Origin: Erysipelotrichaceae bacterium
Lineage (GTDB): Bacteria > Bacillota_I > Bacilli_A > Erysipelotrichales > Erysipelotrichaceae
Direction: 5' to 3'
Assembly: GCA_030526485.1 (NCBI GenBank)
Contig: JAUNCS010000022.1
Location: forward strand, 1 to 32,342
DNA length: 32,342 bases
How positions within the stretch are numbered: position 1 is the first letter of the stretch; every line of letters starts with the position of its first letter. Below the pieces are notes generated by a model, which saw only the letters and a program-made list of their open reading frames with translations, had not been told where the DNA came from and did not search any database. The position numbers were made by a program, and so were the translations under genes. This document shows, in pieces, positions 4,969-13,703 of this stretch.

Positions 4969-4997
4969 TTGACTTCTTTTTTCTAGGGACATAACAT
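4969..4997 (+). promoter_or_regulatory. Promoter of the liv leader and operon
   Basis: TTGACT at 4969-4974, a 17-base spacer, and TAACAT at 4992-4997. Transcription would start near 5004, about 24 bases before the leader peptide ATG. Confidence 0.7.
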
Positions 4998-5027
4998 TAA
5001 ATATGTAAACAGAAAGGGGTTATAAAA

Positions 5028-5153
5028 ATGAAACGAAATATGTATTCCAATTGTTGTAGATTTATGGCCTCTGCATGTGATCAGATAGCTATAATTATTG
5101 ACGTCATTATTATTAGATTACTAGTCTTACGTAATTTGATTTTGTGTGGTTAA
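5028..5153 (+). CDS. 41-residue BCAA-rich leader peptide of the liv operon
   Basis: A small ORF whose codons appear to be a sensor rather than a functional protein. AAAGGGG at 5013-5019 sits eight bases before the ATG, and a promoter lies 30-60 bases upstream. Residues 20-29 read IAIIIDVIII and residues 30-39 read RLLVLRNLIL: 8 Ile, 5 Leu and 2 Val within the last 22 codons, using ATA, ATT, TTA, CTA, TTG and GTC. The first 19 residues are ordinary, with three Cys. The stop TAA (5151-5153) lies next to an RNA segment able to pair either with the Ile codons (5089-5099) or with the loop of a downstream terminator. This matches the layout of the enterobacterial ilv and leu leader peptides. A small membrane protein is the alternative, but the hydrophobic part is interrupted by Asp and Arg, and the position before a transporter of the same amino acids favours a leader. 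Confidence 0.8.
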   Translation: MKRNMYSNCCRFMASACDQIAIIIDVIIIRLLVLRNLILCG

Positions 5154-5196
5154 TAATTGATAGTGTTTATTTATGTTATTTAGATGAGCTATCAAT
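5089..5196 (+). promoter_or_regulatory. Attenuator: protector (1:2) and antiterminator (2:3) RNA pairings
   Basis: Segment 2 (5152-5163, directly at and after the leader stop codon) has two possible partners. With segment 1 (5089-5099, the Ala-Ile-Ile-Ile codons 21-24) it forms 11 pairs with one bulged G at 5159. With segment 3 (5189-5196, CTATCAAT) its ATTGATAG at 5156-5163 forms 8 perfect pairs plus a wobble. Segment 3 covers the loop and the top of the left arm of the terminator at 5182-5217. Expected logic: a ribosome stalled on Ile/Leu codons frees segment 2 for antitermination, while a ribosome at the stop codon, or no translation, leaves the terminator free to form. The pairings are read from sequence; the mechanism is inferred. 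Confidence 0.75.
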
Positions 5197-5217
5197 GAGC
5201 TCATCTTTTATTTTATT
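5182..5217 (+). terminator. Attenuator terminator (3:4) before livJ
   Basis: A perfect 9-bp stem AGATGAGCT / AGCTCATCT (5182-5190 with 5198-5206), a 7-base loop and the tail TTTATTTTATT. It stands between the leader peptide and livJ in the same transcript, as a conditional terminator would. Confidence 0.85.
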
Positions 5218-5274: not shown

Positions 5275-6471
5275 ATGAAAAAATTATTAGTCGTTTTACT
5301 AGGTATCATGATGGTATTTGGCCTAGTTGGTTGTGGTTCTAAAACAGAAGACAACGCTCCATCAACAGGTGGTGGTGACGAAGCAAAGGCTAGCTTCAAG
5401 CTAGGTTGCTCAGGTCCACTTACAGGTGGCGCTGCAGTTTACGGTAATGACGTAAAGTGGGCTGCTGAAATGGCTGTTGCCGAAATCAATGAAAAAGAAG
5501 GTTATAACTTCTTCGAATTCAGAATGGAAGATGATGAAGCTGATCCAGAAAAAGCTCCAAACGCTTACGGTGCTTTAACTGACTGGGGTATGCAGGTATC
5601 TCTATACACTGTAACTTCAGGTGCTGGTCTTGCAGTTTCTGCTGACTACAATGCTGATAGAGTATTCGCTTTAACTCCATCTGGTTCTAACCCTGGTCTT
5701 GCTCACCCAGCTAATGGTAACTACGATAACTTATTCCAGGTTTGCTTCACTGACCCTAACTTAGGTACAGCTAGTGCTGATTACATTTCTTCAAACACTA
5801 TCGCTGGTATGGAAGTAAAGAAAGTTGCTGTTATCTACAGATCTGATGATGACTACTCTACATCTATCTACAACACATTCATGTCTAAGGCTGCTGAAGT
5901 AGGTCTTGAAGTTGTTTATGAAGGTTCTTTCATTAACTCTGATGCTGACTACTCAACTCAGTTAACTGGTGCAGCTGCTGCTGGTGCTGAATTAGTATTC
6001 CTTCCAATCTACTACGGTCCAGCTGCAACTATCTTAACTCAGGCTGCTGCTATGACTGATTTCAACCCTGTATTCTTCGGCGTTGATGGTATGGATGGTA
6101 TCCTAGGTCTTGAAGGTTTCGATCATGCACTTGCTGAAGGTGTTTACCTATTAACACCATTCGCTGCTGATGCTAAGGATGATGCTACTGTTCATTTCGT
6201 AACAGGTTTCGAAGCTGCTCATGGTTCAACTCCAACTCAGTTCGCTGCTGATGCTTATGATGGTGTTTACGCTATCTACAACGCATTAAAGGCTACTGGT
6301 TGCACAGCTGATATGGATGCTGCTACTATCTGCGATAAGCTAGTTGGTGAATTCACTACAATGACTTTTGAAGGCTTAACTGGTACTGCTAACTGGGCAG
6401 AAAACGGTGAAGTTTCTAAGACTCCAAAAGCTGTAATCATCACTGACGGTGTATACGTAGCTGCTGAATAA
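5275..6471 (+). CDS. livJ: Branched-chain amino acid ABC transporter substrate-binding lipoprotein
   Basis: The extracellular binding protein of a HAAT-family importer, probably for Leu, Ile and Val. A lipoprotein signal peptide covers residues 1-19, with the lipobox LVGC and lipidated Cys20, then a Ser/Gly/acid-rich linker. The mature part has the two-lobed type I periplasmic-binding fold (Peripla_BP_6): LGCSGPLTGGAAVYG at the first lobe and VAVIYRSDDDYS at the hinge region. The 398-residue length is normal. AAGGGAG at 5261-5267 precedes the ATG. It is first in the liv operon, behind a leader peptide and attenuator, and is followed by a hairpin that probably makes it more abundant than the membrane subunits. 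Heavy use of GCT, GGT and AAC codons suggests high expression. The ligand is inferred from family and context. Confidence 0.95.
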   Translation: MKKLLVVLLGIMMVFGLVGCGSKTEDNAPSTGGGDEAKASFKLGCSGPLTGGAAVYGNDVKWAAEMAVAEINEKEGYNFFEFRMEDDEADPEKAPNAYGALTDWGMQVSLYTVTSGAGLAVSADYNADRVFALTPSGSNPGLAHPANGNYDNLFQVCFTDPNLGTASADYISSNTIAGMEVKKVAVIYRSDDDYSTSIYNTFMSKAAEVGLEVVYEGSFINSDADYSTQLTGAAAAGAELVFLPIYYGPAATILTQAAAMTDFNPVFFGVDGMDGILGLEGFDHALAEGVYLLTPFAADAKDDATVHFVTGFEAAHGSTPTQFAADAYDGVYAIYNALKATGCTADMDAATICDKLVGEFTTMTFEGLTGTANWAENGEVSKTPKAVIITDGVYVAAE

Positions 6472-6568: not shown

Positions 6569-7450
6569 ATGGTATTTCTATCGTATTTAATAACAGGGCT
6601 TGGTCTTGGAAGTGTTTATGCGATCATAGCTCTTGGATATTCAATGGTTTATGGTATAGCGAAAATGCTGAACTTTGCACATGGTGACATCATCATGGTT
6701 GGTTCATACGTCGCATTCTTTGTTTTATATAGATTTGGCCTATCAGTTCCAGTAGGCATCATTCTATCTGTGCTGGTCTGCACAGTCTTAGGTGTACTGG
6801 TCGAAAGATTAGCTTATAAACCATTAAGACAGGCATCTTCTTTATCAGTTTTAATTACTGCTATTGGTGTTTCTTATTTCCTACAGAATGGTGCACAGCT
6901 TCTTTGGTCTTCATCTCAGAAGATGTTCAAATCTGTAGTAGGTGATGGTGGCATCTCTTTATTTGGTGGAAAGTTAACTCTTTCATATATCACACTTGTA
7001 ACAATCCTTACTTGTATCCTGATTATGATTGCTTTAACATTATTCATCAATCATACTTCTACTGGTCGTGCTATGAGAGCTTGTTCAGAAGATAAGGGTG
7101 CTGCACAGTTAATGGGTATTAATGTTAATACTACAATCTCAATTACCTTCGCTATCGGTTCAGCACTTGCTGCAATCGCTGCTGTACTATTATGTTCAAC
7201 ATATCCTTCAATTACACCAACTCTAGGCTCTATGCCTGGTATTAAAGCCTTCACGGCTGCTGTATTTGGTGGTATCGGTTCAATTCCTGGTGCCTTCATT
7301 GGTGGTTTATTATTAGGTGTTATTGAAAGTTTAGCTAAGGCATATATTTCTACACAGCTATCAGATGCTGTTGTATTTGCAGTATTGATCGTTGTCTTAT
7401 TAATTAAGCCAACAGGCTTACTTGGTAAGAAAGTATCAGTTAAGGTTTAA
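6569..7450 (+). CDS. livH: Branched-chain amino acid ABC transporter permease LivH
   Basis: One of two integral membrane subunits forming the BCAA pore. The 293-residue product is almost entirely hydrophobic with about eight predicted helices. It starts with the LivH hallmark LGLGSVYAIIALGYSMVYGI and then MLNFAHGDIIMVG. The loop TGRAMRACSEDKGAAQLMGIN is the EAA-like contact site for the ATPases, and the C-terminus has the usual FGGIGSIPGAFIGGLLLG. AAGGGGG precedes the ATG. livM follows after 12 bases. Length and motifs match the family, with no damage seen. Confidence 0.96.
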   Translation: MVFLSYLITGLGLGSVYAIIALGYSMVYGIAKMLNFAHGDIIMVGSYVAFFVLYRFGLSVPVGIILSVLVCTVLGVLVERLAYKPLRQASSLSVLITAIGVSYFLQNGAQLLWSSSQKMFKSVVGDGGISLFGGKLTLSYITLVTILTCILIMIALTLFINHTSTGRAMRACSEDKGAAQLMGINVNTTISITFAIGSALAAIAAVLLCSTYPSITPTLGSMPGIKAFTAAVFGGIGSIPGAFIGGLLLGVIESLAKAYISTQLSDAVVFAVLIVVLLIKPTGLLGKKVSVKV

Positions 7451-7462
7451 GGAGGGGAGAAC

Positions 7463-8524
7463 ATGTTTAAGAAAATTTTCGACAAAAAACATCGTGGCCG
7501 TACCTTCTCATATCTGATGGTACTTGTTGCCTATGTTGTTATTGAAATAATGTTATCAACCAAGTCAATGTCTTCTTTAATGAAGAACTTGCTTGTTCCT
7601 TGTTGCTGTTATATTGTTACAGCTTTAGCTTTAAACCTTTGTGTAGGCTTATCTGGTGAATTATCACTTGGTCATGCCGGTTTTATGTCTATTGGTGCTT
7701 ATACTGGTATCTGCTTCTCTGGTTTCTTTGAAAGCAGCATTACAAATCCAATCGTAAGACTAATACTTGCTATGATGATTGCCGCTGCTGTTACAGCTTT
7801 ATTTGGTTTCCTTATTGGTATTCCAGTATTAAAACTATCAGGTGACTATCTGGCTATCGTTACTTTGGCTTTCTGTCAGATCATCGCTTCACTTATCAAT
7901 AACTGCTACCTTGGTTTTGATTCTAATGGTATTCAGTTCTCATTTATTACAAATAATGTAAATATCGAAGCCACTGGTAAGATGCTTCTATCAGGTCCAA
8001 TTGGTGCTTCAGGTACTACACGTATTTCAACATTTACAGTTGGTGTTGTATTAATTGTTATTACTTTGATCGTTATTTATAACCTAATGTATTCAAAGAA
8101 TGGCCGTGCTATTATGGCTTGTCGTGATAACTCAATTGCTGCTTTATCAGTAGGTGTATCAGTTACCAAGACTAAGATGCTGGCCTTTGTAATTTCAGCT
8201 GCTATTGCTGGTGCTGCTGGTGCTCTATATGGCTTAAACTTCTCAACTTTAGCTCCAGCTAAGTTTAACTTCAACCAGTCAATCCTGATTCTTGTTTACG
8301 TAGTATTGGGTGGCTTAGGTAATATTAATGGTACTATTATCGCTGCATCATTACTGTACATCCTGCCTGAAAAACTAAGAGGTTTACAGGATTACCGTAT
8401 GATTATTTACTCATTAGTATTAATTGCAATTATGCTAATCTCTAATAATCAGAAGTTTAAGGTCTTTGTTGAAAAGAATACTAAATTGTTTAAAAACAAA
8501 TTTACTAAGAAGGAGGCTAAATAG
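7463..8524 (+). CDS. livM: Branched-chain amino acid ABC transporter permease LivM
   Basis: The second pore subunit, pairing with LivH. The 353-residue product has about ten hydrophobic segments. Family landmarks are ALNLCVGLSGELSLGHAGFM near residue 60, LKLSGDYLAIVTLAF in the middle, the ATPase-contact loop NGRAIMACRDNSIAALSVGV, and VVLGGLGNINGTIIAA near the end. The ribosome site is AAGGAGGGGAG, 12 bases after livH. The Lys-rich tail carries AAGGAGG at 8510-8516, which serves livG three bases after the stop. Confidence 0.96.
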   Translation: MFKKIFDKKHRGRTFSYLMVLVAYVVIEIMLSTKSMSSLMKNLLVPCCCYIVTALALNLCVGLSGELSLGHAGFMSIGAYTGICFSGFFESSITNPIVRLILAMMIAAAVTALFGFLIGIPVLKLSGDYLAIVTLAFCQIIASLINNCYLGFDSNGIQFSFITNNVNIEATGKMLLSGPIGASGTTRISTFTVGVVLIVITLIVIYNLMYSKNGRAIMACRDNSIAALSVGVSVTKTKMLAFVISAAIAGAAGALYGLNFSTLAPAKFNFNQSILILVYVVLGGLGNINGTIIAASLLYILPEKLRGLQDYRMIIYSLVLIAIMLISNNQKFKVFVEKNTKLFKNKFTKKEAK

Positions 8525-8526
8525 TT

Positions 8527-9303
8527 ATGTCAAATACAAATAACACTCCAATATTAGAAGTTAAGGATCTGGGTATTGATTTCGGCGGTCTTACTGCTGT
8601 AAACAATTTCAATATCACAATCAATAAAAATGATATTTATGGCTTAATCGGTCCAAATGGTGCTGGTAAGACTACTGTCTTCAATATGCTTACCAAGGTT
8701 TATACACCAACTCGTGGCACTATCATCTTTAATGGTCAGGATACCAAGGGTATGGATGCGATTGCCGTTAATAAACTGGGTGCTGCCAGAACTTTCCAGA
8801 ACATTCGTCTATTCAATGAATTAACTGTTGAAGACAATGTAAAGATTGGCATGCACAACGAACTGACTTATAGTACTTTAGAAGGTATTTTAAGAACTCC
8901 TAAATACTATAAGCAGGAAAAGGCTGCTCATGAAAAGGCTATTGAATTATTAAAGATTTTTAATCTTGATGAATTCGCTGATGTACAGGCTAAGTCATTA
9001 CCTTATGGTGCTCAAAGAAGACTGGAAATTGCCCGTGCTTTAGCAACTAATCCAGTATTACTGTTACTTGATGAACCAGCTGCTGGTATGAACCCAACTG
9101 AAACTGAAGAATTAATGAATACTATTCGTTTTGTAAGAGACAAGTTTAATATCGCAATTCTTTTAATTGAACACGATATGAAACTGGTTATGGGTGTATG
9201 TGAAAAGATTACTGTTTTAAACTTTGGTCAGGTATTAATGACAGGTACTCCTAGTGAAGTACAGTCTAATCCAGAAGTTATTAAGGCTTATATAGGAGAT
9301 TAA
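8527..9303 (+). CDS. livG: Branched-chain amino acid ABC transporter ATP-binding protein LivG
   Basis: A cytoplasmic ATPase that drives import together with LivF. Walker A is GPNGAGKTT (near residue 42). The signature motif has the LivG-type form LPYGAQRRLEIARAL rather than LSGGQ, and Walker B is VLLLLDEPAAGMNP with the switch His in LLIEHDM. The C-terminal BCA_ABC_TP extension ends in the usual VQSNPEVIKAYIGD. The 258 residues match the family. It starts three bases after livM and ends two bases before livF, so the subunits are tightly coupled. Confidence 0.96.
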   Translation: MSNTNNTPILEVKDLGIDFGGLTAVNNFNITINKNDIYGLIGPNGAGKTTVFNMLTKVYTPTRGTIIFNGQDTKGMDAIAVNKLGAARTFQNIRLFNELTVEDNVKIGMHNELTYSTLEGILRTPKYYKQEKAAHEKAIELLKIFNLDEFADVQAKSLPYGAQRRLEIARALATNPVLLLLDEPAAGMNPTETEELMNTIRFVRDKFNIAILLIEHDMKLVMGVCEKITVLNFGQVLMTGTPSEVQSNPEVIKAYIGD

Positions 9304-9305
9304 TT

Positions 9306-10010
9306 ATGCTAGAAGTTAAGGATTTAAATGTCAGCTATGGCATGATTGATGCTGTTAAGGGTATCAACTTTAAAATTGAAGATGGCCAGGTTGTAGCGTT
9401 AATCGGTGCCAATGGTGCCGGTAAGACTACTACCATGCATACAATTTCTGGCTTATTAAAGGCTAAGTCAGGATCTATTACGCTGGATGGTAAAGATATC
9501 ACTAAGGTTCCAGGTAACAAGATTGTTTCTATGGGCCTGGTACAGGTACCAGAAGGTCGTCGTGTCTTTACTCAAATGACTGTTGAAGAAAATTTAAAAC
9601 TTGGTGCTTACTTAAGAAAAGACAAGGAACAGATTGAAAAAGACTTTAAACATGTCTATGAACTATTCCCACGTCTGGAAGAAAGAAAGTCTCAGCTTGC
9701 TGGTACTTTATCTGGTGGTGAGCAGCAGATGCTGGCTATGGGAAGAGCCTTAATGTCTTCACCTAAGGTCTTGCTTCTTGATGAACCTTCAATGGGTTTA
9801 TCACCATTACTTGTTAAGGAAATTTTCTCAATCATTAAGGAAATCAATAAATCAGGTACAACAGTATTTGTAGTAGAACAGAATGCGAAGATGGCTTTGG
9901 AAATTGCTGATTACGCATATGTTATGGAAACTGGTAAAATAGTATTAGAAGGAACAGGTAAGGAACTTGCTGCTTCAGAAGCTGTACAGAAAGCATATCT
10001 TGGAGGTTAA
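9306..10010 (+). CDS. livF: Branched-chain amino acid ABC transporter ATP-binding protein LivF
   Basis: The second ATPase of the LIV importer. It shows Walker A GANGAGKTT, the canonical signature LSGGEQQMLAMGRAL, Walker B VLLLDEPSMGLSP and the switch His replaced by Gln in VVEQNAKMA, which is normal for LivF. The stretch VQVPEGRRVFTQMTVEENL is diagnostic for LivF. The length of 234 residues is typical. It follows livG by two bases. Its last codons carry GGAGG (10003-10007), the ribosome site for the CBS-ACT gene. Confidence 0.96.
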   Translation: MLEVKDLNVSYGMIDAVKGINFKIEDGQVVALIGANGAGKTTTMHTISGLLKAKSGSITLDGKDITKVPGNKIVSMGLVQVPEGRRVFTQMTVEENLKLGAYLRKDKEQIEKDFKHVYELFPRLEERKSQLAGTLSGGEQQMLAMGRALMSSPKVLLLDEPSMGLSPLLVKEIFSIIKEINKSGTTVFVVEQNAKMALEIADYAYVMETGKIVLEGTGKELAASEAVQKAYLGG

Positions 10011-10013
10011 AGT

Positions 10014-10658
10014 ATGTACGTTAAAGACTGGATGACAAAAAACCCAATTTGTCTGCAAGAAACTGATTCAATTTTGGATGCTTATAATGTTTTAAAATCA
10101 AATGGCTTCCATCGTATTCCTATCTTAAAAGGGGCTAAGCTTGTTGGCTTAGTAACTGATGACACATTATCAGATTACTCGCCATCAAAGGCTACAACTT
10201 TATCAGTATTTGAAATCAATTCTTTACTACAGAAAACCAAGTGTAGTGAAGTTATGATTACTGAAGTTATTGATATTCAGGATACTGAACTGCTTGAAGA
10301 AGCTGCGGAAAAGATGAAGAGATACAATATCAACTGTCTGCCAGTTATGAGCGGTGACAAACTTGTTGGTATTATCACTTTAAAGGATATCTGTTCAGCC
10401 TTCGTTAATATGATGGACTACCATTCAAAGGGTTCAAGAATCGTTATCACTATTGATGATGATCATCCTGGTATTCTGTCTGATATCGCTCAGGTCTTAG
10501 CTGAAAAAGATATCAACATCTCAATGATGACTGTTTATCACTATGAAAAGATTACTATCTTAGTAAAGGTAGATAATGAAGATTCTGTAACAGTAGCTAA
10601 CTTATTAAGTTCAAAGGGCTATACTGTTGTAGATTATCGCACAATGCAAATTGATTAA
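10014..10658 (+). CDS. CBS-CBS-ACT domain protein (AcuB-like), last gene of the liv operon
   Basis: A cytoplasmic ligand-sensing protein of about 214 residues. Two CBS domains lie at roughly residues 5-55 (VKDWMTKNPICLQETDSI) and 75-130 (CSEVMITEVIDIQDTELL), forming a Bateman module that usually binds adenosine nucleotides. An ACT domain follows at about 140-210 (RIVITIDDDHPGILSDIAQVL), a fold that commonly binds amino acids. It begins four bases after livF and shares its transcript. No catalytic motif is seen, so a regulator of the transporter or of BCAA metabolism is the natural inference; the B. subtilis relative AcuB is linked to acetoin/butanediol use, so the domain set alone does not fix the role. 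The promoter for valS overlaps its 3' end. Confidence 0.85.
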   Translation: MYVKDWMTKNPICLQETDSILDAYNVLKSNGFHRIPILKGAKLVGLVTDDTLSDYSPSKATTLSVFEINSLLQKTKCSEVMITEVIDIQDTELLEEAAEKMKRYNINCLPVMSGDKLVGIITLKDICSAFVNMMDYHSKGSRIVITIDDDHPGILSDIAQVLAEKDINISMMTVYHYEKITILVKVDNEDSVTVANLLSSKGYTVVDYRTMQID

Positions 10659-10679: not shown

Positions 10680-10684
10680 AGATT

Positions 10685-10884
10685 AGACGAAGAAAAGAAG
10701 GAAGTAATTATCCTGTGACATAAAGAGATATCCTGGGGCTGAGAAGGATACGAAAGGGTAGTGAAAAGTAGTCTTGGAGTTTATCGGCTGAGCTTAGTAA
10801 GCTGATACGTTACTCGCGTTAAGAGATTAAGTAAAAAATAAGGTGGTACCGCGTAATCACGCCCTTGTGCCACCTTTTTATTTT
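10685..10884 (+). promoter_or_regulatory. T-box riboswitch of valS
   Basis: A tRNA-sensing leader. The T-box core GGTGGTACCGCG is at 10842-10853, preceded by the stem III segment CTCGCGTTAAGAG that is also present in the thrS leader. The terminator pairs 10840-10849 with 10867-10876 and ends in TTTTTATTTT. Stem I closes with AGAC (10685-10688) against GTCT (10771-10774). The codon just before the 3' arm is GTA (10768-10770), a Val codon, so it is the likely specifier, although the lower stem is short. Uncharged tRNA-Val would stabilise the antiterminator and switch valS on. Confidence 0.93.
10840..10884 (+). terminator. Conditional terminator of the valS T-box
   Basis: Stem AAGGTGGTAC / GTGCCACCTT (one wobble) with an inner GCG/CGC stem, then TTTTTATTTT. 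The left arm contains the T-box bases that bind the tRNA acceptor end in the alternative fold. Confidence 0.9.
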
Positions 10885-13506: not shown

Positions 13507-13512
13507 ATCTAA

Positions 13513-13703
13513 GTATCGTAAATGAGACGAGATTATTCTTATCACTTTTATAGAGAGGCTGTGGTTGGTGTAAACAGTTATACATAAGGATAGTTACTAC
13601 TCATTAGATCTTTTTAATCAAAGACGTAAAACTCGCGTTAAGAGTAAGAGTAAAAATTAAGGTGGTACCGCGTAATAACGCCCTTATACCACCTTTTTAT
13701 TTT
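13513..13703 (+). promoter_or_regulatory. T-box riboswitch of thrS
   Basis: The T-box core GGTGGTACCGCG is at 13661-13672, with the stem III segment CTCGCGTTAAGAG before it. The lower stem I pairs AATGAG (13521-13526) with CTCATT (13600-13605). The codon on the 3' side just before this helix is ACT (13596-13598), followed by A, which fits a Thr specifier and the conserved purine after it. The terminator pairs 13659-13667 with 13687-13695. Uncharged tRNA-Thr would turn on thrS and probably the downstream lipoprotein and permease genes. Confidence 0.95.
13659..13703 (+). terminator. Conditional terminator of the thrS T-box
   Basis: A perfect stem AAGGTGGTA / TACCACCTT followed by TTTTTATTTTG. 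It is mutually exclusive with the T-box antiterminator. Confidence 0.9.

Follow-up and report, generated by a model that had tools for sequence, protein, structure and literature searches.

The livJHMGF importer operon of an Erysipelotrichaceae genome is, with a probability that we put at about 0.9 from sequence comparison, controlled by a ribosome-mediated transcription attenuator that senses a shortage of charged Ile-, Leu- or Val-tRNA. The element lies in a stretch of 32,342 nucleotides, referred to as the window, and the alignment of its relatives shows that the leader ORF, the spacing and the pairings 2:3 and 3:4 are conserved and are jointly present or absent. What happens in the cell, namely that the leader is translated, that the ribosome stalls when tRNA is uncharged and that transcription terminates or reads through, we infer. 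With charged Ile-, Leu- and Val-tRNAs at hand, a ribosome would reach the stop codon of the leader and cover segment 2 of the RNA; segments 3 and 4 would then form the terminator and liv would not be transcribed. If any one of the three charged tRNAs were short, the ribosome would stall in the Ile/Leu/Val cluster and mask segment 1, and the free segment 2 would pair with segment 3 before the 3' arm of the terminator is made, letting RNA polymerase read through into liv. When there is no translation, 1:2 and 3:4 would both form and lead to termination. An earlier note, made from the letters of the window, had already read the region as a branched-chain amino acid (BCAA) leader-peptide attenuator of liv in a Bacillota-type genome. 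The taxon does belong to the Bacillota (Erysipelotrichales), and the reading is supported by the conserved ORF with its ribosome site and spacing, by the changes in 2:3 and 3:4 and by the joint loss of the parts.

The promoter, the ribosome site, the 41-codon ORF with its composition and the three pairings named in that note could all be read directly from the + strand, on which these parts and the liv genes lie. The sigma-70-type promoter TTGACT-17-TAACAT (4969-4997) has its -35 box TTGACT at 4969-4974 and, after a spacer of 17 nt, its -10 box TAACAT at 4992-4997, and a similar promoter (TTGAC(A/T)-16/17-TAAACT or alike) precedes the leader ORF at about the same distance in more than half of the relatives. 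It is followed by the Shine-Dalgarno (SD) sequence AAGGGG at 5014-5019, which has an SD-like counterpart (AAGGAGG or AAGGGG) at the equivalent place in 27 of 29 relatives, a clear SD not being found before the leader ORF in the other two (L006 and L114). The leader ORF itself, the putative sensor, occupies 5028-5153 and encodes MKRNMYSNCCRFMASACDQIAIIIDVIIIRLLVLRNLILCG, with the stop codon at its end. All of its 15 Ile/Leu/Val residues (8 Ile, 5 Leu and 2 Val) fall within codons 20-41. When the 392-nt intergenic region was shuffled 5000 times with its dinucleotides kept, an SD-preceded ORF with at least 12 such residues in 16 codons arose only once, by which a chance BCAA-rich ORF was ruled out, and with a threshold of at least 11 the leader ORF stands alone among the 58 SD-preceded ORFs of 20-60 codons on both strands of the window. 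As in attenuators, it is a short SD-preceded ORF rich in codons for the amino acids of its operon.

Segment 1 (5089-5099) lies over the first Ile cluster, and its sequence CUAUAAUUAUU pairs with AAUAAUUGAUAG of segment 2 (5152-5163) by 11 bp with one G bulge; the loop of this stem encloses an inner hairpin (5112-5121/5131-5140), which is present in the minimum free energy (MFE) fold and has a 4-bp counterpart in the RNAalifold consensus. Segment 2 starts at the stop codon in the window and only a few nucleotides from it in the relatives, where a terminating ribosome would cover it. Segment 3 (5188-5196) consists of the terminator loop and the last bases of the 5' arm and pairs with segment 2 as AUUGAUAG (5156-5163) with CUAUCAAU (5189-5196), plus a U-G wobble, giving an alternative antiterminator that is exclusive with the terminator. 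Segments 1 and 3 are alike (AUUAUCG and UUAUCG) and compete for segment 2. Between the leader stop and livJ there is an intrinsic terminator, a 9-bp hairpin (3:4) at 5182-5206 with the arms AGAUGAGCU/AGCUCAUCU, followed by the U tract UUUUAUUUUAU (5207-5217). The MFE fold of the window RNA contains 1:2 and 3:4, and the attenuator region folds at -52.1 kcal/mol compared to -37.9 kcal/mol for shuffles (z -3.6, with 0 of 200 shuffles as good).

livJ is found in 33 of the 36 genomes of the genus and is preceded by leader and terminator in 29 of these 33. The 29 leaders have 32-41 codons, start 196-253 nt before livJ and are Ile/Leu/Val-rich, with on average 6.7 Ile, 4.8 Leu and 4.0 Val per 37 residues. 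From the leader stop to the 5' arm of the terminator there are 28-39 nt (median 33), and the terminator carries a T-rich tail. The conservation upstream of livJ that the earlier note had proposed to look for is thus present for the BCAA-rich ORF, its site and its spacing, and the pattern it had named as contrary evidence, a terminator kept after loss of the ORF, occurs in no genome. In the remaining four genomes (G016, G018, G008 and G025) leader and terminator are both missing, neither being kept alone, and the distance from promoter to livJ is short. As the divergent asnA neighbour of the attenuator-bearing genomes is also kept in G016, the attenuator was likely lost in place there. At the livJ loci of these four (L003, L005, L025 and L029) there is no T-box in place of the missing attenuator. 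Weak hairpins near livJ in L005 (AT-rich) and L029 (the terminator of the upstream gene) were rejected as terminators of the attenuator.

In other genera of the family the attenuator is absent from the sampled readable livJ loci, whose leader region is short; BCAA-rich ORFs before livJ in other genera (L034, L138, L140 and L149) were discarded, as they had no SD, overlapped a promoter or gene, or had no terminator. The distribution of the element was judged by a protein profile of the leader, which gave 28 matches within the genus (E <= 5e-5), one per genome and every one at the livJ attenuator. Run against 296 genomes of the class, it returned no relative that was convincing. Three weak matches in the class (E 0.0016-0.0096, one with internal stops) were taken as chance. 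Among the genomes examined the attenuator, as recognised by this profile, is a genus-level feature.

For the terminator, 97.7% of the cells are paired in the relatives, and double-sided compensatory changes are seen in 5 of 8 tested pairs, a level reached by 0 of 500 shuffles. The antiterminator 2:3 is built from two blocks: in one, segment 2 proper pairs with the terminator loop, and in the other an AGCU-like stretch pairs with the 5' arm of the terminator. It is paired in 85% and shows 16 double-sided changes compared to 6.6 expected, with 0 of 500 shuffles reaching it in all five measures, and its signal is destroyed when the partner is slid by 1-3 columns. In single genomes the 2:3 duplex beats shuffles (p<0.05) in 26 of 29 cases. 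These covariation counts are to be read as strong hints and not as probabilities, because the shuffle control ignores the kinship of the sequences. The compensatory changes that the earlier note had suggested looking for in three stems were thus found above all 500 shuffles in 2:3 and 3:4, whereas covariation in 1:2 stays at the level of the shuffles; the columns of 1:2 are nearly invariant, so that covariation gives no proof of this stem. Nevertheless 87.5% of the 1:2 cells are paired compared to 20-59% when slid, the register of the window being shifted relative to the consensus.

The leaders share the consensus MKRxxxxxxISFxxExxxxIIDxLVLRxLRGIIIMxxC with a conserved core IIDxLVLRxLRGIIIM. 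The peptide is hydrophobic and its conservation extends beyond the BCAA content (IID, LR, RG), which would suit a small functional, possibly membrane, protein followed by a constitutive attenuating terminator that is not regulated. We regard this as very unlikely, as the N-terminal half of the leader is free to vary, the antiterminator covaries, leader and terminator are lost jointly, and the conserved residues other than BCAA are encoded in paired parts of the RNA, Asp within segment 1 and LR/RG within the inner hairpin. The conservation of these Asp and Arg/Gly codons may therefore be explained by RNA pairing. The same motif of about 16 residues, conserved in most leaders, could also point to a sequence-specific arrest of the nascent chain, in which an arrest peptide would sense free BCAA or another ligand and not tRNA charging. 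This has an equally small chance of being right, since Ile, Leu and Val interchange freely among the leaders, and the leaders of the window, L026 and L027 are without the motif yet stay Ile/Leu/Val-rich, as sensing of tRNA charge predicts.

How attenuation by tRNA charge could work was modelled with a ribosome whose leading edge lies 15 nt past the A site, on a transcript ended after segment 3 and before the 3' arm of the terminator. In this model the median length of 2:3 is 16.3 bp for a ribosome on Ile/Leu/Val codons and 8.6 bp for one at the stop codon; of the 29 genomes, 28 have the higher value under the Ile/Leu/Val stall (p = 1e-8). When the full-length RNA is folded to equilibrium, the terminator is the preferred structure with no ribosome or with one at the stop (typically >=0.9) and falls for many, not all, stall positions; often it is preferred even with segment 1 masked, and antitermination, which the truncated-transcript model reproduces, is not cleanly reproduced. 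Because the full-length equilibrium often favours the terminator, antitermination must be kinetic and decided during transcription. The same holds for known attenuators. In ribosome-free truncated RNA 1:2 loses out in several genomes, including that of the window, which makes termination without translation uncertain.

Downstream of the attenuator follow the genes for a livJ-like BCAA substrate-binding lipoprotein as the first gene of the operon (5275-6471), livH-like (6569-7450) and livM-like (7463-8524) permeases, livG-like (8527-9303) and livF-like (9306-10010) ATPases and, as the last of the run and directly 3' of livF, a protein with two CBS domains and one ACT domain (10014-10658). The liv names are the best NCBIfam and Pfam matches; the scores fall short of the NCBIfam cut-offs set for E. 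coli-type equivalogs, which is what distant relatives should give. ACT domains often bind amino acids, and the CBS-CBS-ACT protein may thus have a regulatory or sensing role connected with the importer. Neither CodY nor, over the cut-off, the ketol-acid reductoisomerase IlvC was found in the 36 genomes of the genus, many of which are incomplete. BrnQ occurs in 3 of the 36, including the genome of the window, whose brnQ (L132) has neither leader nor T-box upstream. Given the absence of CodY and IlvC from these gene inventories, import is probably the main BCAA source of the genus and the attenuator probably its main specific BCAA sensor. The remark in the earlier note that Gram-positive BCAA genes are better known for T-box and CodY control is moot here as far as CodY is concerned.

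T-boxes do occur in the window, as that note had claimed, before valS (10681-10869, an Rfam match) and before thrS (13510-13688, a match of 82.6 bits and thus below the Rfam cut-off of 93). The ThrRS encoded after the second one has no N-terminal TGS domain by Pfam. These are the only matches to the T-box family RF00230 in the window, the livJ leader giving none, and no Rfam family matches 5004-5217 at the gathering threshold or at E<=1. Control of liv by a T-box or by a riboswitch that binds a ligand, with the ORF present only by accident, could be argued from these two T-boxes and from the livJ motif, a riboswitch candidate reported mostly from Streptomyces (PMC11109978). It is the least probable of the alternatives, as no Rfam family matches the leader, no T-box is found upstream of livJ in the relatives, and what is conserved is an ORF rich in BCAA codons and constant in its spacing. 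With the attenuator as the preferred reading, this genome apparently uses both a ribosome and T-boxes, all within about 9 kb, to sense tRNA charge.

At L019 (G030), L030 (G021) and L111-L114 livJ is far more diverged (53-54%) from that of L010 than are the attenuator and the upstream asnA at the same site. For G030 and G021, the divergent asnA is 77% identical to that of G028 (others 75-87%) and the attenuator 75 and 71% identical at the nucleotide level (others 72-80%), whereas livJ is only 53-54% identical, compared to 79-89% for attenuator-bearing peers and 57-65% for other genera. Identity is reduced in their livH as well (71-73% compared to 83-85% for L007), and these types are deeply separated in the livJ tree, whereas Lon places the same genomes within the main group. 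The simplest reading that these identities suggest is a replacement of importer genes below a retained attenuator. We see roughly even odds that livJ, and probably the whole operon, was swapped at least twice in the genus at one site marked by divergent asnA, promoter, leader and terminator, with the attenuator kept. Fast evolution of livJ could explain part of the divergence, and so could mixed bins; G029 gives several hits for Lon and is 6% contaminated. If the swaps are real, BCAA importers would be interchangeable beneath a generic tRNA-charge switch that serves them as a stable docking place, in a lineage that has neither CodY nor IlvC, and the element would be a case of a regulatory RNA that appeared in one genus, was lost in place and was kept while the downstream gene changed.

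The BCAA leaders of enterobacteria have about 30 codons and combine the 1:2/2:3/3:4 logic with a U-tract terminator. With ilvL, ivbL and leuL, the leaders of ilvGMEDA, ilvBN and leuABCD, the liv leader shares the BCAA-rich peptide, this logic and this terminator; those attenuators control biosynthesis, whereas here an importer is the target, and the Bacillota genus that carries it has no ilvC. For the biosynthetic genes of enterobacteria, BCAA attenuation mediated by the ribosome is established (reviewed in PMC6123439). The earlier note had held attenuation of a liv importer by leader translation to be little described. No leader-peptide attenuator of a liv importer was found in the limited body of literature searched, but Gram-positive BCAA attenuators are already established for biosynthetic operons. 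Rli60 of Listeria monocytogenes (ilvD) is likewise ribosome-mediated and was tested by mutants of ATG, RBS and terminator and with an E. coli reporter (PMC5864092), but it has a leader of 13 residues, belongs to a biosynthetic operon and acts together with CodY, which is missing here. The Leu-rich attenuator of ilvD in Staphylococcus aureus (PMC5794164) is of the same mechanistic class in the Bacillota, but is Leu-centred, biosynthetic and combined with CodY. From the account given in PMC11109978, the uORF of ilvB-II in Corynebacterium (PMC10272879) also has a conserved BCAA-rich peptide, antiterminator and terminator, but in another phylum and for biosynthesis. Within the same order, leader-peptide attenuators have been predicted for His in Erysipelotrichales (PMC9413887), with a His leader, a biosynthetic operon and other genera as the differences. 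Known is thus the ribosome-mediated BCAA attenuation of biosynthesis, and new are the importer target and the taxon: a putative classical leader-peptide attenuator, well backed by comparison of relatives, that is placed on a BCAA importer and not on biosynthesis genes, in uncultured Erysipelotrichales of the gut that have neither CodY nor IlvC.
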